DNA from: a virus | DNA length: 20,477 nucleotides | Strand: one strand, 5' to 3' | IMG/VR virus record: IMGVR_UViG_3300031566_000466 | Location: 1-20,477 of that record | Shown: positions 160 through 20,477 of the stretch, in pieces | Numbering within the stretch: the first letter of the stretch is position 1 | Layout of the letters: each line of letters starts with the position of its first letter | Position numbers and translations under genes: made by a program | Notes under the pieces: model-generated | The model's database searches: none | What the model was told of the DNA's origin: nothing | The model's input: the letters and a program-made list of their open reading frames with translations, nothing else

Positions 160-738
160 TTACTTCCAGCTTAAGATGATAAGCCGCTGGATGCCTGCTA
201 TGTTGCTGGTAATTCGGGTATAAATAGTTTGATCCGCCCCGATTTCTTCCTCGAAATGGGACGTGGAGGCTCCGATCGGATACCAATTTCCCGCAATGCC
301 AGAATCTCCCGCCGCATAGGCAGCTTGGATTTCACGGCTTCCTACATTTTGCAGTAGGAACCTTTTCGTACCTGCGGGCATGGCGTAGCTGTATTCGACA
401 TTTTGTGCGAGGAAATCTATCCAAGCGATCGTAGGCGTTGTAACTACGTTGGTGTCGGTAACGCCCGCAATAGGGGTATTGCCCTCGCAAGGAGGGAAGT
501 AAGAAGCCCGTAGGTTCCACACGGCATTGTACTTGGCGTCATTGGCAAACAGAGTCGTTACCACGCCGTCTTTATTTTCGACGCGCTTAATCTGCCACTT
601 CGGCTCGTTGATGCCGGTAGCCATTTTCGGAGTCATGCCGATGTAGATGCAAGTCACGTCGGACGTGTCTTCTTTTAATTGCTGGACAGGATCGCCCCTC
701 CGCAAAATGTCTACATGTGCTGCGCCGGTTATGGTCAC
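160..738 (-). CDS. 192-residue beta-rich protein, unknown function
   Basis: A 192-residue protein, not recognised. It starts with GTG at 738, with AAGGAA six bases upstream and a GTGA overlap with the preceding gene. The sequence is mostly beta-like: CIYIGMTPKMATGINEPKWQ, a central Thr/Val-rich stretch (GVTDTNVVTTPTIAWIDFLA), YSYAMPAGTKRFLLQNVGSR, and a closing strand IQRLIILSWK. The central 'AMPAGTKRFLLQN' region resembles the strands of small virion or decoration-type beta-sandwiches. No signal peptide or membrane segment is visible; two cysteines are present (CIYIG and PPCEG). It is the last complete gene in the window, 48 bases before the next start. A virion surface or accessory structural protein is possible. 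Confidence 0.68.
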   Translation of the reverse strand: MTITGAAHVDILRRGDPVQQLKEDTSDVTCIYIGMTPKMATGINEPKWQIKRVENKDGVVTTLFANDAKYNAVWNLRASYFPPCEGNTPIAGVTDTNVVTTPTIAWIDFLAQNVEYSYAMPAGTKRFLLQNVGSREIQAAYAAGDSGIAGNWYPIGASTSHFEEEIGADQTIYTRITSNIAGIQRLIILSWK

Positions 739-947
739 TGGACTTTCCTTGCAGAATCGCCCTCATTGGAGAGGTCCCGGAGGTCTTGGATTTTAGTAAT
801 CTTACCACTTTTTTCTTTGAGGTGTTGCTGGACCAATCGGAAGAGTTTGTCGTCGGCTTTAATGTCTTCAGCCGTGAGGATAATCTCGCCCATTTCGTCG
901 AGTTCTTCCTCTGTATAGCTGTAGTTTTTACCGAAGGGTTTAAACAT
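735..947 (-). CDS. 70-residue charged protein, unknown function
   Basis: A 70-residue acidic and basic mixed protein starting MFKPFGKNYSYTEEELDEMG. The frame is open upstream to a TTG at 989, but that start has no ribosome binding site and lies inside the lysine-rich mini-gene; the ATG at 947 overlaps that gene's stop by eight bases and is preferred. The body is predicted helical (EEELDEMGEIILTAEDIKAD, DKLFRLVQQHLKEKSGKITK). Its stop overlaps the next GTG start as GTGA. The family is not recognised. It may be a small regulatory or assembly protein; no helix-turn-helix can be argued with confidence. Confidence 0.6.
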   Translation of the reverse strand: MFKPFGKNYSYTEEELDEMGEIILTAEDIKADDKLFRLVQQHLKEKSGKITKIQDLRDLSNEGDSARKVQ

Positions 948-1044
948 TTTTCTTATCCATTTCTTTACTGTACGCCCTAAGTTCCTCAACCGTTTTAAAT
1001 TTTTTCTTAGCTTTTTTCTTTTTCTTTACGTCTGCTTTTTTCAT
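940..1044 (-). CDS. Lysine-rich 34-residue mini-protein
   Basis: A short reading frame of 34 residues, MKKADVKKKKKAKKKFKTVE followed by ELRAYSKEMDKKNV, with 14 lysines. It starts with an ATG that overlaps the stop of the acidic 590-residue gene as ATGA, the same coupling used elsewhere in this operon, and ends with TAA at 940-942, overlapping the ATG at 947 by eight bases. Without it, about 95 bases between two tightly packed genes would be empty. The N-terminal half is a nearly pure basic patch; the second half could form a short helix. A nucleic-acid-binding or acidic-partner role is a guess from charge. Its small size leaves some doubt that it is expressed. Confidence 0.6.
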   Translation of the reverse strand: MKKADVKKKKKAKKKFKTVEELRAYSKEMDKKNV

Positions 1045-2813
1045 GGTTGCAACTCCTTTGCCTCTTTCTTTAGATCATCTAAAATACCCTTAATGTCCTC
1101 GTTATCTAGTGCTTTTTCGAGTGATCGTTTTCTCATGTCGGCGATATTATCAAGCGCCACATCGACTTGTTCCCTCACCTTTTTGTTATTTTTAAGCGTA
1201 TCTTGCGCTCCGACCCTGCCATTAAGATGATAAATCAAATCATCATAGGCATTCTGGTCCATATCGTCAGCCACTTCCCTGAGGTAATCTTTCAGATATT
1301 TTTCGTCCCACTGATCTAACGGCTTACCTCTCCCAGGAACGGGATCTACCATGTCGTCGATTATTTGCTCTTTAAGCCCGTCATCGAAAAATGAATTTTC
1401 CCACCATTCTTTTGTGTTTTGGCCTCTCAACGGCTCTTGAAAATTATCATAGATTTCATTAAAAATAGAATCGGAGGTTCTTTCGTCAGTTTCTTTCGCG
1501 ATTATTTCCTTTTCACCCTTGTATTCAGATTCGTAGCGACGGCGGCGTGTCACATCACCAAAGATTCGCTCGTCTCCGTAGTCGGCCATAGAGAAATCAT
1601 ATCGTTCATTGTCATCAATCCAATGCCAATCTATTTCCTCATCACCACTATCGCCCAACTCATCGCGGTACTTTTTCATATTATCCTGGTGTGCCTCGAA
1701 AGCATTTTCAGCTTCTTCTTGAGCCCAGTCATCTAGCCATTCATTAACTACATCTTCATCTTTATCGGTCGATTCGTTATCTTCCCAACGCCTAAGTATC
1801 TCAGCGTCTTCAGCGTTTTGGTTGGCGTGCTTTATCCTGAATCTCTGAGGTAAATTGTCTTGGTCTATGCGCTCCGAGATGTCGTCTTTGATTTTATCAA
1901 TTATATCTGACGCATAGTAATCAAACGCATCTATTTGGCCCTGCGCTCTATCGTATTCTGTTGGGACTTCGTTATGGTTGTAATTATCATCAAGCCAATC
2001 TCGCTCCCAAGAATCATGAATTTCATAGTTGTTATCTTGATCGAATTTATACCACCAGTCATCTTCATACCCAGCGTCTGGGCTTAGGGACTCCATGAAT
2101 GTATCGAGATCTTCACTCTCTGACTTCGGGACTTTTTTCTCTGCGGCGATTTTATCTACTAATTCGTTCGATTCACGAAACGGGCTATCAGGCGCTCGCC
2201 TTTCCATCGGCAAACCGGTATCCGGGTCTATGACTCTATTTTCCATCTCGTCATATTTCTTTAATCCCTCGTAGGGATTCCCAGAATCCGTAGCGTATGG
2301 GTCTATCGGCCCCGCCGATTCGGATCCGCCCATCATTTCCCTCTGTTTTGCCATGGCTTCTTCAGCGGCTTTTCTAGCCTCCGGATTCATATAATCGAAA
2401 ATGCTTTCGATTTTCTTGCCGCCGCCGCCGCCAGCCATCCCGAAGCCGAAGCCTTCGGGACCAGGAATCAGGTCCAAGCCAGTAGATAAAGCAGCGCCAA
2501 AACCGGCTCCCATATTCGGATAACCAGCGGCTCCCATCGGATTCACTACGTTTTCACCAACCCATTGGTTCCCTGATTTTATCCAATCCTGATACTTGCG
2601 TTCAGATATAGGATCCATGGAATCCTGAGACGATCCGAGCCTAACCGGAGGCCCCATAGCACCGGGGTTTTGCTCGTAACCAGCAGACATCATATTTTCT
2701 TCGGCTATCTTCATCTGTTCTGGATCCATATAGACCCATGGATTGAAGGAGTTACGTCCCCCGTATCCACCCTTATAGCCGCCTAAAATTATTTGCTCGT
2801 ATGGGTTAGGCAC
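1041..2813 (-). CDS. Large, very acidic protein of unknown function (590 residues)
   Basis: A 590-residue protein, not recognised. The N-terminal 135 residues are Gly/Pro/Met-rich with little charge and include a glycine tract (GFGFGMAGGGGG, 121-132). From about residue 140 on it is helical and highly acidic: in residues 231-320, 29 of 90 residues are Asp or Glu, with many Trp and Tyr (YEDDWWYKFDQDNNYEIHDS; later EEIDWHWIDDNERYDF). No enzymatic motif, signal peptide or membrane segment is visible. It starts with GTG at 2813, overlapping the preceding gene by eight bases, with GGAG about ten bases upstream. Its stop overlaps the ATG of a lysine-rich mini-gene. Possible roles are an internal virion protein, a DNA-mimic ejected with the genome, or a charge-neutralising partner of the basic proteins next to it; all are inference. 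Confidence 0.7.
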   Translation of the reverse strand: MPNPYEQIILGGYKGGYGGRNSFNPWVYMDPEQMKIAEENMMSAGYEQNPGAMGPPVRLGSSQDSMDPISERKYQDWIKSGNQWVGENVVNPMGAAGYPNMGAGFGAALSTGLDLIPGPEGFGFGMAGGGGGKKIESIFDYMNPEARKAAEEAMAKQREMMGGSESAGPIDPYATDSGNPYEGLKKYDEMENRVIDPDTGLPMERRAPDSPFRESNELVDKIAAEKKVPKSESEDLDTFMESLSPDAGYEDDWWYKFDQDNNYEIHDSWERDWLDDNYNHNEVPTEYDRAQGQIDAFDYYASDIIDKIKDDISERIDQDNLPQRFRIKHANQNAEDAEILRRWEDNESTDKDEDVVNEWLDDWAQEEAENAFEAHQDNMKKYRDELGDSGDEEIDWHWIDDNERYDFSMADYGDERIFGDVTRRRRYESEYKGEKEIIAKETDERTSDSIFNEIYDNFQEPLRGQNTKEWWENSFFDDGLKEQIIDDMVDPVPGRGKPLDQWDEKYLKDYLREVADDMDQNAYDDLIYHLNGRVGAQDTLKNNKKVREQVDVALDNIADMRKRSLEKALDNEDIKGILDDLKKEAKELQP

Positions 2814-3036
2814 CTTTTAACATCTCCATAAGTTTCTTCATTTGATTTTCAGCTTGACCAATTTTTTTGCGCTCGTATGTAGCTACATCTTTTTGAAAAT
2901 CTAACTCAGTCTTTTGCGAATTTAGCTGGTCCAAAATTCTCTCGACGCCCTGCATGTCACCAATGCCTTGCGTCCTGGGGAATCTATCATGAGGACCTTG
3001 GACAAAAGTCCATGGAGACTGTTGTGGCATCATCAT
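2806..3036 (-). CDS. 76-residue coiled-coil protein, unknown function
   Basis: A 76-residue protein that I do not recognise. The first 28 residues are polar and aromatic (QQSPWTFVQGPHDRFPR) and probably extended. Residues 30-74 form one long charged helix with heptad-like hydrophobic spacing (VERILDQLNSQKTELDFQKD, ENQMKKLMEMLKG), suitable for a coiled coil. Three consecutive ATG codons open the gene; the first, at 3036, overlaps the preceding stop as ATGA and is preceded by AAGGAG and AAGGG, so it is chosen. The end overlaps the next gene's GTG start by eight bases. A small virion oligomerisation or assembly factor is possible, but nothing proves it. Confidence 0.66.
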   Translation of the reverse strand: MMMPQQSPWTFVQGPHDRFPRTQGIGDMQGVERILDQLNSQKTELDFQKDVATYERKKIGQAENQMKKLMEMLKGA

Positions 3037-3425
3037 TTCCCTTGCTCCTTAATACGCTTTCGCTGATCGCCTTTTTTCATGCGGCCCTTGCCATAATCGT
3101 ATTCGTCGGATGGGGTAGGCGAGTTATCAAGATTCGCGCTACTATAAGATGACCTGTGGGTACGGCCCGTTCCCTTGGCCTTCTCTGACCTGTCCTGGGT
3201 ATTGCCAGATTTCGAGCGGGTTGCGCTGCCCTGGATCCCTGTATTTGGTTCACCAGTGCCGGTACGGTTCTTTTTAGTAGAAACCTTCTTACCATAACCA
3301 GACAACCCCTGCATGTCGTCGTACATATCCTTGGTATAGGCTTTTTTACGAGCGTCAGGGGAACCGGGAATGATATATTCCTCATCTGATTTCTTCATGC
3401 CTTTTCCGTAATGTGATTCATACAT
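3033..3425 (-). CDS. Basic low-complexity 130-residue protein, unknown function
   Basis: A 130-residue, strongly basic protein rich in Lys, Arg, Gly, Ser and Thr, with little hydrophobic core and therefore probably disordered. The motif YGKG followed by MKK occurs twice, near the N-terminus (YGKGMKK, residues 6-12) and near the C-terminus (YGKGRMKK), and a related YGKK lies between them. The last 20 residues are almost all charged (KKGDQRKRIKEQGK). It has no recognisable fold; packaged DNA is a plausible partner because of the charge, and the gene lies in the ejection cluster. The start at 3425 has GAGGT about ten bases upstream. Its stop overlaps the next ATG as ATGA. Its GC content appears normal for the window, so low complexity rather than transfer explains its odd composition. 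Confidence 0.62.
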   Translation of the reverse strand: MYESHYGKGMKKSDEEYIIPGSPDARKKAYTKDMYDDMQGLSGYGKKVSTKKNRTGTGEPNTGIQGSATRSKSGNTQDRSEKAKGTGRTHRSSYSSANLDNSPTPSDEYDYGKGRMKKGDQRKRIKEQGK

Positions 3426-3432
3426 AAAAAAA

Positions 3433-4407
3433 TTACCTCATTCTTGGGGCTGGCCCTACTGAGCCTCCTCCGGTTATATCTTCTAACGTCGGCTCTTGAC
3501 TTGTTGCACCATGATAAATAGCTGGAAAAGCACCCTTAGTAAGATATGGATTAGTCAGCATTTTAGACCATGGATTCCTTGTATCTATAGTTTCCATAAT
3601 TACACCCGCAGCATTCTTTCTAAATTCTTCTTTGGGAGTAATTTTTTTAGCAAGATATGACGCTATTTCAGCGGATTTCGGCATGACGAGAGTATTAAAA
3701 GGAATATAATCAATTACCTTACCCGCTTTTTCTATAGCCGGTCCTGCAATTTGGGCCGTACCAATAGCGGCCTTCCCGGTCGCGCGACCAACGGATCCGC
3801 CTACAGCAGGGACCATACCAAGTAACCCAGCGCGTCCGATCCTTTGAGTATCCATTTCTTGATCTAATCCAAAATATTTACCAAGCCCTTGGCGTAACGC
3901 CTCCATGCCAGCACTAACAGCTCCGCCGCTTGCCGCCGCGCCTACCGGTCCACCGCCAAAAAAACCAGCCGCTCCCGCTGCCGTTGTGACCGCCGTATCA
4001 ACGGCGTCATACAAGACATCACCAACATCGCTTAAAGTGTCTGACCACTCGCCAAAAGCAGGGTCTAAAACACGATAAAAATCCTCACCTTTTTTTCGCC
4101 CCTGAATTCTTCCGTTACGCCAACTTATATCTTCAATATCCGGATTGAGTTTTTTCAACTCTTTTATAGAAGCCTCTGGATTATTCGAGAAGTTTTTAAC
4201 AAACATCCTGCCTTCAGCGTCTAATGGTAATTCTTTTGTGGGCACCACTAATTTACTAATATCTCTTAACTCATCAATCGGCCTATTGCGAAGCCAATCT
4301 TGCCAAGTTGGATCCTGTTTAGGTAGATCGCGCATTCTCTCGACGAATATCTTTCGTTGAGTCGCGTTCATCCTTGGCCAAGCTTTCTTAGCAGCTTCAA
4401 TATCCAT
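3433..4407 (-). CDS. Putative internal virion / DNA ejection protein with Gly-Ala membrane segments
   Basis: A 324-residue protein. Residues 1-60 are helical and charged (AWPRMNATQRKIFVERMRDL). A small domain follows to about 115. Residues 127-180 form a Gly/Ala-rich hydrophobic stretch (DAVDTAVTTAAGAAGFFGGG, then PVGAAASGGAVSAGMEALRQ, GLGKYFGLDQ), and a second one spans about 188-226 (RAGLLGMVPAVGGSVGRATG). This pattern of glycine-spaced helices after a polar head is shared by podovirus internal virion proteins that form part of the trans-envelope conduit. The C-terminal 90 residues are polar, ending in GGGSVGPAPRMR. No lytic transglycosylase signature is seen. The start at 4407 abuts the previous stop directly. 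The role is inferred from composition and place; I cannot name the family. Confidence 0.68.
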   Translation of the reverse strand: MDIEAAKKAWPRMNATQRKIFVERMRDLPKQDPTWQDWLRNRPIDELRDISKLVVPTKELPLDAEGRMFVKNFSNNPEASIKELKKLNPDIEDISWRNGRIQGRKKGEDFYRVLDPAFGEWSDTLSDVGDVLYDAVDTAVTTAAGAAGFFGGGPVGAAASGGAVSAGMEALRQGLGKYFGLDQEMDTQRIGRAGLLGMVPAVGGSVGRATGKAAIGTAQIAGPAIEKAGKVIDYIPFNTLVMPKSAEIASYLAKKITPKEEFRKNAAGVIMETIDTRNPWSKMLTNPYLTKGAFPAIYHGATSQEPTLEDITGGGSVGPAPRMR

Positions 4408-5472
4408 CTATATGCCCAATGCTTTCATTTCTTCAGGAGTTAAGCCATCGCCTGTGGTTTTCGGTTCCGAATTTACCGGGGTATTAGATGGCACTTTGTA
4501 ACCGCTTGAGCCTAACGATTTTATCCTTTTTTCCTTTGTTGTTTTAAGTAGATAAATTATCTCTGATAGTTTCTTTTTTGGATCTCCATAAATTTTATCA
4601 GAACTAAGATTGGGAAACATTTTTCTATATTTTATCTCATCACCAGCGGCAAGCTTTCCGCCTTCTAAAATAGTACCAACCGCTTGCAATGTAGGTAGAA
4701 GCCTTGCATCATAGCTTGCTCTATCAGAAGGGCTTAGAGGATTAAAAGAATCATAGTCGCCTGAAAGTCTCTCTACCAATTCTATTGCTGTGTCGATATC
4801 GCCAATGTCTTGGGCAGAAGTCTGAGAAAGATTTTTATCTCCACCACCACCACCACCTGGCTTACTAAGCCCCGTGGTATTTGTTTTCCCCGTTACCTCT
4901 CCGGAAGAATATATATTTCTAAATTGATTCTTGAAGAAATCATTGTAATTTTTAACGTAGTTATTTTGTTCTTTTGAAGCCGCTTCTTTAAGCCTCAAAC
5001 CAAAATCCATCCATTCTTTTTTGGTCATAGATGGCTTGTACATATCCGATATGTTGTACTGACCGCGATTAAACCAATCCGTAAATTTCATTAACGGAGT
5101 TAAATCTGTTTGAGGTGGTTTTGATAAAAACTGAGCCAAAGCACCTTTTAAGTTTTGTACGCCCTGCTTTTGTTCTTTTAATGGCTGGAATTGCTCCGCC
5201 CTAACTGTGAAATCTATATATTGCTCCGGAGATATAACCCCTATCTCTTTCGCCTGTTCTGATAATTTGCTCGTTTCAATATTAGATGAATAACGACCAT
5301 CAGCAGCAGGACCAGCAGCAGGACCAGCAGCAGGACCAGCAGCAGGACCAGCAGCAGGACCAGCAGCAGGACCAGCAGCAGGACCAGGAATTTCTGGCAA
5401 TAGCTTTGCAGGCTGGCCGGATTGAAACGGAGCGGAATAAAAATCTCTCAGATATTGCATAGCGTCAGACAT
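4408..5472 (-). CDS. Putative ejection protein with seven GPAA repeats
   Basis: A 354-residue protein, not recognised. After a 29-residue N-terminus it carries seven tandem Gly-Pro-Ala-Ala units (residues 30-57), which should form an extended flexible spacer. Residues 65-195 are mainly helical and charged (LSEQAKEIGVISPEQYIDF, KKEWMDFGLRLKEAASKEQN, NDFFKNQFRNIYSSGE). A second flexible joint follows (PGGGGGGD, near residue 207). The C-terminal 140 residues form another helical domain (IDTAIELVERLSGDYDSF, YDARLLPTLQAVGTILEGG, KLSEIIYLLKTTKEKRIK). This bead-and-linker design and its place among Gly/Ala-rich genes suggest an internal virion protein. The ATG at 5472 follows a weak GGCGGG site. No enzymatic motif is visible. 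Confidence 0.66.
   Translation of the reverse strand: MSDAMQYLRDFYSAPFQSGQPAKLLPEIPGPAAGPAAGPAAGPAAGPAAGPAAGPAADGRYSSNIETSKLSEQAKEIGVISPEQYIDFTVRAEQFQPLKEQKQGVQNLKGALAQFLSKPPQTDLTPLMKFTDWFNRGQYNISDMYKPSMTKKEWMDFGLRLKEAASKEQNNYVKNYNDFFKNQFRNIYSSGEVTGKTNTTGLSKPGGGGGGDKNLSQTSAQDIGDIDTAIELVERLSGDYDSFNPLSPSDRASYDARLLPTLQAVGTILEGGKLAAGDEIKYRKMFPNLSSDKIYGDPKKKLSEIIYLLKTTKEKRIKSLGSSGYKVPSNTPVNSEPKTTGDGLTPEEMKALGI
5301..5386. repeat. 12-bp tandem repeat, seven copies, in frame
   Basis: The plus strand reads cagcagcaggac seven times in a row from 5301 to 5384, then a partial unit. The copies are identical, which points to recent expansion by slippage or recombination. Because the unit is 12 bases, gain or loss of copies changes the protein by four residues (GPAA) and keeps the frame. 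Confidence 0.95.
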
Positions 5473-5473
5473 T

Positions 5474-5953
5474 TTAATACCCGCCTGTCATCATTGCCTC
5501 GTATGGAGATGATCGGTTTTTAGAGTTTGTATTATTAGCATTTGAGCCGCGCATATAAGGATGTTCCTCATAATAATCAGCTCTGGTAGGAGGACCTACA
5601 AATTCGTCATTTACATACGGATCGCTATATTCTGCCGATGTCCAGCCAGTGGAATCTCCATAGTGATTAGGGCTTTTCTGTCCGCCCAACCCATCCCACC
5701 ATTGGTTAGCTGCCTGGCCTACGTTAGTCATCCCTAATTGTTCGCCAAGTCCCATACCTCCCATAGCACCGGAGGTAATATTACCGATTATGGACGGAGT
5801 ATTCATAACACCCATATTAGGAGGTGTGCGCCCAGCCGCCGCCATACGCGCATACATATCCTTTCTTGGCCCATACTCTTTTTGTTCTTGACCATATCGG
5901 ATTATTCCTAATCCAGCTCCCAATGCTGCCGGTAAAAATGCTGGTATAGCCAT
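5474..5953 (-). CDS. Putative small internal virion protein with hydrophobic N-terminus
   Basis: A 159-residue protein, not recognised by family. It begins with a hydrophobic, Gly/Ala-rich helix (residues 2-19, IPAFLPAALGAGLGIIRYG) and has a second Gly/Met-rich hydrophobic patch (SIIGNITSGAMGGMGLGEQL, around residues 54-73). The C-terminal half is polar with many Tyr, Asn, Ser and Asp and looks disordered. Such glycine-spaced membrane-active helices are typical of small podovirus ejection proteins. It lacks a basic n-region and cleavage site, so it is not a Sec signal peptide. The start at 5953 has GGTGG about seven bases upstream, and the gene is spaced one base from both neighbours in a chain of similar genes. 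An ejection or membrane-penetration role is inferred. Confidence 0.65.
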   Translation of the reverse strand: MAIPAFLPAALGAGLGIIRYGQEQKEYGPRKDMYARMAAAGRTPPNMGVMNTPSIIGNITSGAMGGMGLGEQLGMTNVGQAANQWWDGLGGQKSPNHYGDSTGWTSAEYSDPYVNDEFVGPPTRADYYEEHPYMRGSNANNTNSKNRSSPYEAMMTGGY

Positions 5954-5954
5954 A

Positions 5955-6743
5955 TTAAAACCACCCCCCGCCGCCGCCGCCGCCGCCGCCTAATCCGTTT
6001 ACTATAGATCTTCCCTGAGTATAAACAGGTCCGCCCATTAGATCGCCAGCCTGTATCCCAGTGCCGCCAATATCTTGAGTAAGAAAATCGCCGCCTGGTA
6101 ATCCGCTCATCATACTACCCCATGGCGAACCGTCACCCCCCTGACCAGCGCCTTGGCTTGCTATGGCTTGTGACATCATCGCATCCCTTGCCGCCTGATC
6201 CTTGGCCGCAGCATTGTATTGATCTATTCTTGACCCATAACCTGCGGCCCCTAATTCAGCCTGCCCTAACTGCCCTACAAGATCTCTCTGGCGTTGATCG
6301 CCGTATGATCTTAACTGCGCCTCCCGACCTGCGGCTCCCCTAGCTAAATTCGATCGCCCTTGTAACGCAGCCATCATATTCTGGGATCCCAGTCTTTCCG
6401 TCGCGCCCGACGTAAGCCCGCCGCGCATAGCCATTTGTCCCTGCTGCGTAGCCAGCGAAGAAGCGCCTTGGCTTTGCAATGCGTCCAAATCACCGGCCTG
6501 CCTAATGCGCTCGGCTTCCATTTGTCCTTGCATCCATTGGCCGCTCATCGGATCCTCAGAAGCCATACCCCTAAGTTGATCTAGGTATCCAGTATTAAGG
6601 TTATTGTTAACCATGGTGGGATCAAAGGAATAACCATTACTATTGCTGCCGCTGCTGCCGCCGCCGCCGCCGTTACCAGGACCAGCAAAGAGTCCCTCTT
6701 TTCTATTCCATTGAGACGCCAAGTTTGGAATTTCTATTCCCAT
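5955..6743 (-). CDS. Gly/Ala/Gln/Met-rich putative internal virion (ejection) protein
   Basis: A 262-residue protein, very rich in Gly, Ala, Gln, Met and Ser. A Gly/Ser/Asn linker lies at residues 24-37. Residues 50-200 are predicted mostly helical, with small residues and regular Gln/Arg spacing (ERIRQAGDLDALQSQGASS, REAQLRSYGDQRQRDLVGQL), and the C-terminus ends in nine glycines followed by WF. This style resembles the internal or ejected proteins of podoviruses (the P22 gp7/gp20/gp16 class and T7 gp14), which leave the capsid with the DNA and help it cross the envelope. It starts two bases after the adaptor stop, with GAGGAG about ten bases upstream. No lytic domain is visible. The family is not identified; the ejection role is inferred from composition and place. 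Confidence 0.68.
   Translation of the reverse strand: MGIEIPNLASQWNRKEGLFAGPGNGGGGGSSGSNSNGYSFDPTMVNNNLNTGYLDQLRGMASEDPMSGQWMQGQMEAERIRQAGDLDALQSQGASSLATQQGQMAMRGGLTSGATERLGSQNMMAALQGRSNLARGAAGREAQLRSYGDQRQRDLVGQLGQAELGAAGYGSRIDQYNAAAKDQAARDAMMSQAIASQGAGQGGDGSPWGSMMSGLPGGDFLTQDIGGTGIQAGDLMGGPVYTQGRSIVNGLGGGGGGGGGWF
5968..5990. repeat. CCG trinucleotide tract encoding poly-glycine
   Basis: Nearly eight uninterrupted CCG units on the plus strand, read on the minus strand as GGC glycine codons at the end of the 262-residue protein. A shorter, imperfect tract encoding Gly/Ser lies near 6648-6674 in the same gene. Both are slippage-prone; changes by three bases keep the frame. Confidence 0.85.
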
Positions 6744-6745
6744 TT

Positions 6746-7705
6746 TTAACTATGCTCCTCGTAAGCTGAAAAATCAGGCTCTATTAGATTCTCGGCGTCT
6801 GGTACAATCTCTTGCAGAACGCCGATCATTTCATTCATTTCAAGTAACACCTCAGGATAGTCACCGCTTTGTACCTGGCCGTGTAAACGCTTTTCTTTAA
6901 TATCGCATTTCATCTTGACAAATTCTACCACGTAATTGAACGCTTCCGGGATGTCTAAGATATTGTTTGGATCGGCAACAGGGAAAACAAAGCGGTTTGC
7001 CTGTCTTATGTACCATACAGTCACCGAATCCCCGGTTTCCGAAGGGGAAGGTACAAATAGCATTTCCGGCTGTCCTGGGGTGTCATTTGTCAGGAAATAC
7101 TCATAGCAGCCCGAACCGCTATTTATATCTGAGATCGCTTTAATCTCGAATTTTTTCCAGTCCTGTAGGCGCGTAATTTTATAAACCCTGCTTCCGTTCG
7201 CATACACGACACGGCGAATCTTATGCGCGTATATATTTGGCGGAAGGGTGTATCTTCTTTGGCCTGAAGTTAAACCTCTGTGGCGGATTTGAAAACCCTG
7301 ACCAGCGCCTACGGATGGGTCGCCGTCAATTACCAACGTGTCCCCGGATACACTTAAGATCGTATACCAAGTGTCGTACGACTCAGACTGAAGTGATATC
7401 TCATCCCCTGCCAGAACATCGGAAGGCCATGGCCCGCCGAAAAGAACCACATCGTTTGGATCGAGTCCGGTTATTTCAACAGGTCCAATATCTAAGTTAC
7501 TATAAGTGAGCGTCAAAAGACTCTCGCTAGATAAGAAATAATCCTTGTGTATGCCAATAATCTTTTGCTCTGCCCGGTCGATTGCCGCATTGCAGTAGCG
7601 AATCAATTCCTCGTCATCTACGAAAGTTTCTTCGGTTAGGTCCAACTCATCTTTTACGCGATCCAAGATGTTTTGGGCTGTCCAATATTGCTTGGTAATG
7701 GCCAA
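6746..7705 (-). CDS. Head-tail adaptor-like (connector) protein
   Basis: A 319-residue protein with the layout of podovirus head-tail adaptors (T7 gp11 and P22 gp4 types), which form a ring below the portal. The N-terminal 55 residues are helical (ILDRVKDELDLTEETFVDDEELIRYCNAAIDRAEQKIIG, quoted in parts: ILDRVKDELDL, ELIRYCNAAIDRAEQKIIG), typical of this class. A beta-rich insertion occupies about residues 70-180, ending in RRYTLPPNIYAHKIRRV, a strand pattern also common in such proteins. The C-terminal part returns to helices (EAFNYVVEFVKMKCDIKEK, LEMNEMIGVLQEIV). The start is a TTG at 7705, supported by GGGGAG seven bases upstream; no ATG fits. It is unusually placed after the hub gene and before the ejection genes. 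A minor neck protein is the alternative. Confidence 0.72.
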   Translation of the reverse strand: MAITKQYWTAQNILDRVKDELDLTEETFVDDEELIRYCNAAIDRAEQKIIGIHKDYFLSSESLLTLTYSNLDIGPVEITGLDPNDVVLFGGPWPSDVLAGDEISLQSESYDTWYTILSVSGDTLVIDGDPSVGAGQGFQIRHRGLTSGQRRYTLPPNIYAHKIRRVVYANGSRVYKITRLQDWKKFEIKAISDINSGSGCYEYFLTNDTPGQPEMLFVPSPSETGDSVTVWYIRQANRFVFPVADPNNILDIPEAFNYVVEFVKMKCDIKEKRLHGQVQSGDYPEVLLEMNEMIGVLQEIVPDAENLIEPDFSAYEEHS

Positions 7706-19393: not shown

Positions 19394-20477
19394 ACTGCTC
19401 GTTCCAAAACTTCCACTCCGCATCCCAGGCGGCGGAATCTCGACTTTCTGGGTTGTTCCTTTTTTCACGCTCCGCATCAATCGTACCCCTTCGCTGTTTT
19501 TCTACCCATTCATCATATTCTTCCGCCGTGAAAGTCCTCCTAGACGCGGCCTTCACCTCTTTCGACTCCTCACTCTCCTCGCCCGTTATCGCTGTCCAGT
19601 CCCAACCGATCCCACAACATGGATACCTGATCGCCCCATCAATAAAATCATCTGCCGCCTTGCGCTTCACAATATCAGTACGCAGCGTAACCAACTCCTG
19701 GCCCAATTTTCTCAAATCAGAAGTATCGAAAATAAACAACATGTCATTCTTAAATAAAGTATTGACAATATCCTCGCCCAGCTCGTGGCTCTTTTCAGAT
19801 TTTGTAAACGACTCGCCAGCCCTAGACGAAACAATATGGAAATCTTTACTAGCCTGGTCGTAAAACTGATTTCGTAACGTCCAACTACCGCGCATTTCAC
19901 GAAACTTGTTTAAAATATCACCAGAAGTCGTGTCCTCACCATCCATTCGGAAACCGCGAACCACATAAGCCAGGCGGTAATCCGAACGAACCGCAATAAT
20001 ACCCATCGCAGCAGGATGACCCGTAGCACCGCCACCGCCAGGATCAACACCACCATACAAATGCCACTTCCCCGGCTCAATCGGGAACGGAGTCACAAAA
20101 TGACGGCTCGGATCAAAAGCCGGATACTTACGGCCAGTATCCGCAATAAAACGCCCGTAAACTCGACGCTTCACCTCATTATCCGATTTGCATTGGGAAA
20201 TTATCTTGCGGATTCGCTCATCATCAAAAGCACCCTTGGATCCATTCCTATATCGCTGGCAATTGTACATCGAAATCTGCTGCTTAAACGCATCGGGGAA
20301 CTTCTCCTCCTCGCCCGATCCCTCCATCGCCTGCCACCACAACTTCTGATTTAAAGTCGCCGTGAAAACCATGTGGAAATGACCGTCCGTACCAGCAAGA
20401 CGAAACTGTAATTCATCGTAAATATTTTCTGGCAATTCCTCGTCACAGTTATGTACCAGTAATGATTGGGAAAAATA
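19383..20477 (-). CDS. terL: Terminase large subunit (partial, 5' end beyond window)
   Basis: This is the DNA-packaging motor of a tailed phage: an N-terminal ATPase that drives DNA into the procapsid and a C-terminal RNase H-like nuclease that cuts the concatemer. The frame stays open to the window edge, so 364 residues are visible and the Walker A part is missing. A TTG at 20435 is not the real start, because the codons before it encode a Walker B-like strand ending in CDEEL (fragment residues 11-15, catalytic Glu probably 13). A TAT coupling motif follows at 39-41. The nuclease acidic residues are visible as GGVDPG (Asp145), YDQA (Asp207) and DDFIDG (Asp276/277 and Asp280). The acidic/basic C-terminal tail may contact the portal. 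The stop overlaps the next gene's start. The family is clear from motif order and from the portal and scaffold downstream; packaging type (cos, pac or terminal repeats) cannot be read. Confidence 0.93.
   Translation of the reverse strand, partial: YFSQSLLVHNCDEELPENIYDELQFRLAGTDGHFHMVFTATLNQKLWWQAMEGSGEEEKFPDAFKQQISMYNCQRYRNGSKGAFDDERIRKIISQCKSDNEVKRRVYGRFIADTGRKYPAFDPSRHFVTPFPIEPGKWHLYGGVDPGGGGATGHPAAMGIIAVRSDYRLAYVVRGFRMDGEDTTSGDILNKFREMRGSWTLRNQFYDQASKDFHIVSSRAGESFTKSEKSHELGEDIVNTLFKNDMLFIFDTSDLRKLGQELVTLRTDIVKRKAADDFIDGAIRYPCCGIGWDWTAITGEESEESKEVKAASRRTFTAEEYDEWVEKQRRGTIDAEREKRNNPESRDSAAWDAEWKFWNEQYGS

Follow-up and report, generated by a model that had tools for sequence, protein, structure and literature searches.

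We found that the minus-strand gene at 1041..2813 of IMGVR_UViG_3300031566_000466, a 20,477-base virus fragment analyzed over its whole length (the window), encodes a real and unusual 590-aa acidic orphan protein, which on balance we read as a lineage-specific virion cargo ejected into the host. The gene starts with GTG and is in the last part of the structural run, after the tail and adaptor genes and overlapping its neighbors, i.e., in the position of an ejection cluster. Because this position is joined by the absence of cysteine and by a short shared motif, the protein is a probable ejected cargo. The cluster position, the gene overlaps, the exclusion of cysteine from the cluster, and the motif were directly observed, as was the fact that the same place is occupied by a different protein in the contig L092. 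No homolog of the protein was found, and thus its packaging has no evidence from a family.

Gene layout and composition of the acidic protein

The window comes from an uncultured podovirus whose adaptor is of the SU10 type. All the window genes described here lie on the minus strand, in the order terminase, portal, scaffold-like protein, coat, fibers, 674-aa virion protein (matching phrog_3287, E 3.1e-9), SU10-type adaptor, and finally a cluster of genes without assigned names. The coat protein call is weak (phrog_14242, E 1.4e-4), and the portal and the scaffold-like protein, which had no PHROG match, were named from gene position. The adaptor (6746..7705) was recognized by PF24175 (E 2.8e-8, 34.9 bits, cut-off 27); it has an insertion of about 80 aa (residues 64-144) that is absent from the relatives' aligned adaptors. 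As for the terminase large subunit, the window begins within its last residues (20448-20477); the whole gene, at L002:1152-3230 on the plus strand, carries an intein-like insertion of roughly 165 aa just ahead of the conserved CDEELPE stretch. This insertion matched the Pfam Intein_splicing model with E 7.6e-7, below its cut-off, and the terminases of the relatives L003 and L004 do not have it.

Beyond the adaptor, the cluster comprises a 262-aa protein (5955..6743), belonging to a putative ejection or virion family, and a 159-aa protein with a hydrophobic N-terminus (5474..5953), whose family has an SPWTGM-like motif and weakly matched T7_gp14 in one of eight members (E 0.062). Two putative ejection proteins follow, one of 354 aa (4408..5472), belonging to a cysteine-free family, and one of 324 aa (3433..4407), a short homolog of proteins of 494-720 aa whose hydrophobic stretches are rich in Gly; the “internal virion protein” phrog_342 was weakly matched by 2 of the 20 members of this 324-aa family. 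AAGP repeats are present close to the N-terminus of the 354-aa protein (window about 5302-5382). The run continues with a 130-aa protein (3033..3425), a 76-aa protein (2806..3036), the acidic protein, a lysine-rich mini-protein of 34 aa (940..1044), a 70-aa protein (735..947, analyzed as 735-953, i.e., 72 aa and two codons too early) from a small family kept beside the ejection genes in relatives, and a 192-aa protein (160..738), which is the right-hand flank of the region. The genes are tightly packed head to tail: the 76-aa gene overlaps the start of the acidic gene by 8 nt, the letters ATGA contain both the stop of the acidic gene and the start codon of the mini-gene, and the mini-gene in turn runs 8 nt into the next gene, whose ATG is at 947. 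The translation of the mini-gene is credible, since a Shine-Dalgarno sequence of its own, AAGGAG, stands 8 nt 5' of its ATG.

The acidic protein contains 75 Asp, 63 Glu, 38 Lys, 31 Arg, and no Cys, for an overall Asp/Glu content of 23.4% and a net charge of −69. Residues 1-140 are Gly/Pro-rich and near neutral (net −6), residues 231-320 include 29 Asp/Glu out of 90 (32%) and 14 Phe/Trp/Tyr, and residues 480-590 are a Lys/Glu-rich mix (net −8). These values confirm what a preliminary description had reported, namely a very acidic protein with about one Asp/Glu in three residues along an aromatic-rich stretch, a stop overlapping the start of a 34-residue peptide with 14 lysines, and a basic 130-residue protein (net +11) encoded two genes upstream. 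Such acidity is unusual in this phage group: among the relatives' ORFs of at least 150 aa, real and spurious together, only 3/268 reach 20% Asp/Glu overall or 30% in a 90-aa stretch, and their most acidic values are 20.6% and 0.29, versus 23.4% and 33/90 in the acidic protein. An internal duplication, residues ~145-370 against ~370-566, is suggested by an alignment score reached by 0/100 full shuffles and 2/500 block shuffles.

No domain above cut-off was found in the acidic protein with Pfam, NCBIfam, or PHROGs, and no match was found among PDB sequences. Searches for sequence homology to known ejection proteins were also negative. By tblastn, the annotated phage collection gave no match to the portal (E ≤ 1e-5), the coat protein (E ≤ 0.01), or the acidic and 130-aa proteins (E ≤ 1). 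The relatives' records (38, then 33, many of them fragments) contained no match to the acidic protein, which the same tool detected in its own record; scans of viral contigs with the acidic, 324-, 130-, and 76-aa proteins returned nothing new besides L092. The protein was also considered as the lost C-terminal half of the 500-700-aa family to which the 324-aa protein belongs, and this was rejected (profile comparison probability 0.3%). Single-sequence AlphaFold2 gave no usable model (pLDDT 38.6, pTM 0.21).

The composition calls to mind a DNA mimic, an idea already in the preliminary description: the acidic part would be ejected and would block restriction or another DNA-binding defense as T7 Ocr does. 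In this reading, the basic proteins of the operon would mask it until use. Residues 231-480, with a net charge of −50 and 35 aromatics out of 250, are consistent with such a role, as is the ejection that the cysteine and motif counts make probable. Nevertheless, no DNA-mimic family (Ocr or ArdA type) was matched in Pfam, NCBIfam, or PHROGs, no PDB sequence matched, the AlphaFold2 model is of no use here, and in relatives the basic proteins occur independently of the acidic one (see below); we consider a DNA mimic quite unlikely.

The place of the acidic gene in related phages

Relatives were collected with a coat-protein alignment, which yielded 41 viral contigs plus a single contig from a bacterial MAG, and with an adaptor alignment, which yielded 49 loci; 34 of the latter were analyzed, and 15 were omitted, being already in the set or having too little downstream DNA. 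A set of 49 loci was then examined for flanks, and both the 324-aa and the 70-aa families were recognized in 27, which include near-identical contigs and therefore represent fewer independent phages. The recurring order is adaptor, homologs of the 262-, 159-, 354-, and 324-aa proteins, and then the 70-aa family. The distance between the last two ranges from −37 to +18 nt in 26/27 loci and is 1842 nt in L092; in the window it is about 2.5 kb. The whole insert between these two genes is missing from the 26 relatives with short spacing.

L092, a contig of 43.4 kb, is the closest relative found to hold the region, and it shares with the window homologs of the 324-, 130-, 76-, 70-, and 192-aa proteins (69% identity for the last). 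Its gap contains a 113-aa homolog of the 130-aa protein (45% identical over 120 columns), a 96-aa homolog of the 76-aa protein (54% identical), and, in the place of the acidic protein, a 400-aa slot protein (L092:14894-16096); the 70-aa homolog comes directly after it, with no lysine mini-gene. The slot protein has 16% Asp/Glu, a net charge of −4, and no cysteine. It weakly resembles radical SAM proteins (PF04055, E 1.9e-4, 22.1 bits, cut-off 29.5; phrog_13321, E 1.8e-5). A radical SAM protein without cysteine cannot hold the usual iron-sulfur cluster, and the slot protein, having none, is without the usual ligands. AlphaFold2 gave no usable model of it (pLDDT 41.3), and Foldseek with that low-confidence model returned nothing at E ≤ 0.001. 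A similarity between the acidic protein and the slot protein was evaluated and discarded: the best BLASTP piece had E 0.22, and local alignment scores were equaled by 47/300 and 231/300 shuffles for the N-terminal parts and by 49/300 for the whole proteins.

Comparison with relatives also bears on the 34-aa mini-protein (14 Lys, net +10). Lysine-rich mini-proteins are present in L106 (45 aa, 13 Lys, net +10) and L088 (67 aa, 13 Lys, net +6), where each overlaps the end of a 70-aa-family gene and the flanking genes enclose no acidic gene. In both, the lysine tract is followed by a segment like IRSIQDLR or IKTLQDLA, and the window 34-mer has FKTVEELR. The C-terminal half of the 34-aa protein resembles the “tSI.DLR” end of the 70-aa family. 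It scored 12.5 bits with a first profile of this family (0/1000 shuffles) and 6.0 bits with a broader one (84/5000 shuffles), with which the L106 mini-protein reached 20.8 bits, the top score among 749 short control ORFs. These mixed profile results no more than suggest that the 34-aa protein is a shortened form of a 70-aa-family protein. Because the L106 and L088 mini-proteins adjoin the 70-aa family without an acidic gene, the mini-gene seems better read as part of the small-gene locus that follows than as a partner of the acidic protein.

A second match to the 70-aa family lies beside the first in four loci (L105, L107, L106, and L112), of which L105 and L107 look like one phage. Two full-length copies are present at L105:15343-15797, L107:15343-15797, and L112:16081-16543, while the second match at L106:10776-11136 is shorter and lysine-rich.

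The preliminary description, whose title couples the acidic protein to the mini-protein, had proposed that the acidic, 34-aa, and 130-aa proteins are partners by opposite charge. This pairing was not upheld, and we rejected it on the evidence of L092, L106, and L088: L092 keeps the 130- and 76-aa homologs beside a slot protein that is not acidic, and the lysine mini-proteins of L106 and L088 occur without the acidic gene. The absence of the mini-gene in a relative and a charge pattern that is not conserved, two results named beforehand as speaking against the pairing, were both found. The other part of that interpretation, membership in a virion-ejected set, probably stands, on the basis of position, absence of cysteine, and motif.

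Cysteine scarcity and a short shared motif

A way to evaluate whether a late gene without homologs encodes an ejected protein is to count cysteines. In SU10, the ejection proteins gp20-24 have none in 2956 aa, versus 35 in the 5798 aa of 12 other virion or packaging proteins; T7 gp14-16 have 1 in 2261 aa (15/2731 in other T7 proteins) and P22 gp7, gp20, and gp16 have 0 in 1309 aa (31/3646 in other P22 proteins). In N4, cysteine is absent from the vRNAP (0/3500) and from gp51 (0/644) and gp52 (0/150), which we take to be the ejected partners of vRNAP. The crAss001 cargo proteins gp45, 46, 47, 49, and 50 have 7 cysteines in 7478 aa. For N4, two ejection proteins are mentioned, without names, in the relevant passage of PMC12633501. 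The lack of cysteine in N4-like vRNAPs, and its explanation by passage through the tail and the oxidizing periplasm, is treated in sections of PMC3715699, PMC3915230, and PMC4837373. Every ejected set counted here (SU10, T7, P22, N4, and crAss001) is free or almost free of cysteine, which goes beyond this published case. We note that a cysteine-free composition is a regularity counted here and not a formal criterion for ejection proteins, and that T7 gp9, P22 gp8 and gp26, and the N4 coat protein (0/401) are cysteine-free though not ejected. Cysteine scarcity is a possible sequence-only marker of ejected proteins.

The window follows the same pattern. Its cluster of nine proteins, including the acidic one, has no cysteine in 2001 aa, versus 23 in the 4693 aa of 13 other ORFs (Fisher 3.8e-4); outside the cluster, the 695-aa first fiber and the 338-aa scaffold-like protein are cysteine-free as well. 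Across 15 relatives, selected because both flanks were present and no duplicates were evident (the same set used for motif counts), there are 32 cysteines in 23,664 aa of the cluster (71 ORFs) versus 293 in 38,729 aa upstream (107 ORFs). Window included, none was found in the 9841 aa of the 324-aa family (16 members) or in the 5790 aa of the 354-aa family (15 members). Taken alone, the absence of cysteine in the acidic protein is weak evidence (Fisher 0.10 versus the window's other proteins, 0.025 versus the relatives' upstream proteins). Furthermore, 12 of the relatives' 71 cluster ORFs do hold cysteine, so the genes placed there need not all be ejected. Small cysteine-bearing accessory ORFs lie between the 262- and 159-aa genes at L106:6309-6755, L125:11340-11816, L118:8393-8806, and L112:12117-12539; the two that were tested, those of L106 and L112, had no Pfam match.

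The second feature is the motif [NSKQDG]P[WY]..[MLI], which occurs three times in the acidic protein, versus 0.12 expected (1/2000 shuffles), and three times in the L092 slot protein, versus 0.10 expected (0/2000 shuffles); these shuffle figures are overstated, as the motif was picked by eye from sequences including both slot proteins and members of a family are related. In the cluster of the 15 relatives, with the slot protein omitted, it was found 30 times versus 2.06 expected, and upstream 3 times versus 4.91, counts that are not independent within homologous families. Among 11 window proteins encoded outside the cluster, it was found 0 times versus 0.55 expected. The motif is carried by 14/14 members of the 159-aa family and 9/16 of the 262-aa family, and it is not enriched in the 324-aa (2/16 members) and 354-aa (2/15) families. 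Its shorter form of three residues shows at most a mild enrichment in the ejection proteins of SU10 (3 versus 1.2 expected), T7, and P22; the motif would thus be characteristic of the present group of phages.

The same data were weighed against two other readings, both of which we regard as unlikely. The protein could be an internal structural part of the virion (a pilot, core, or conduit that holds or threads the other ejection proteins and never becomes cytoplasmic), as would suit its cluster, its lack of cysteine, a motif common to the 159- and 262-aa families, and the mostly helical fold predicted in the unreliable AlphaFold2 model (pLDDT 38.6). A conduit should be conserved, yet the gene is absent in 26/27 relatives with both flanks recognized and an unrelated protein stands in the 27th. 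Alternatively, it could be a non-virion accessory gene (a moron) sitting among late genes and working in the infected cell. It is indeed a lineage-specific insertion between conserved genes, and other, cysteine-bearing accessory ORFs occur within the same cluster of relatives; however, the four-member family of such ORFs has 17 cysteines in 583 aa and no motif, whereas the acidic protein has no cysteine and three motifs.

Proposed role and comparison with known systems

Under the favored reading of the protein as ejected cargo, gene order and overlap suggest that it would be made late together with the ejection proteins. It would then be packed into the head and leave with the first DNA, by way of the portal, the adaptor, and the tail. 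The Gly/Pro-rich N-terminal part, with its NPY/NPW motifs, may serve packaging or docking, and the acidic, aromatic-rich middle may act in the cell envelope or in the cytoplasm. As a guess that we hold with low confidence, the acidic part could occupy a basic nucleic-acid-binding protein of the host during DNA entry, possibly a DNA-binding defense. If the cargo reading is true, the proteins known to precede phage DNA into the cell gain an acidic type, and this in a group with no member found among annotated phage records; moreover, cysteine exclusion and the shared motif would be cheap sequence tests to tell ejected proteins from ordinary late genes without homologs. If it is wrong, what we describe is just one orphan gene in one lineage.

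A broader and rather doubtful extension is that a modular cargo bay lies between the 324- and 70-aa genes. Its constant part would be the 130- and 76-aa proteins, and the next gene would be swapped among unrelated payloads (acidic in the window, degenerate radical-SAM-like in L092), recognized by the head through an NP[WY]xx[MLI] tag common to the ejection proteins and kept cysteine-free for transit. If this were true, sequence alone would be enough to find the payloads carried by uncultured phages.

T7 Ocr and other DNA mimics combine a strong net negative charge with aromatics. The acidic protein resembles them in both respects; it differs in having no family match and, within its 590 aa, a Gly/Pro-rich, non-acidic N-terminal part.

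The ejection proteins of SU10 (gp20-24), T7 (gp14-16), and P22 (gp7, gp20, and gp16) are encoded, like the acidic protein, at the end of the structural run and have no or nearly no cysteine, and the window shares with SU10 the type of adaptor; for SU10, this position is described in the relevant section of PMC9509320. Nevertheless, no sequence similarity to them was found, the acidic protein is not conserved in relatives, and Asp/Glu reaches only 2.6-17% in these proteins (n=11) versus 23.4%. The N4 vRNAP and the crAss001 cargo gp45-50 are also large and free or nearly free of cysteine; unlike them, the acidic protein is much smaller, has no recognized enzyme domain, and its packaging is a prediction.

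Phage polyvalent proteins are presented, in the portion of PMC5512222 that deals with them, as packaged effectors of the early phase. The acidic protein would be similar to them in being a packaged effector of the early phase, as predicted here, and in its apparently distinct regions. Polyvalent proteins combine several recognizable domains with different activities; the acidic protein has no recognizable effector domain, and only the L092 slot protein is weakly radical-SAM-like, without cysteines. In crassviruses, the set of cargo proteins differs between groups, as stated in a passage of PMC10172136. Given such variation and the packaged early effectors already known, an exchangeable cargo slot would fit known biology in a new form.
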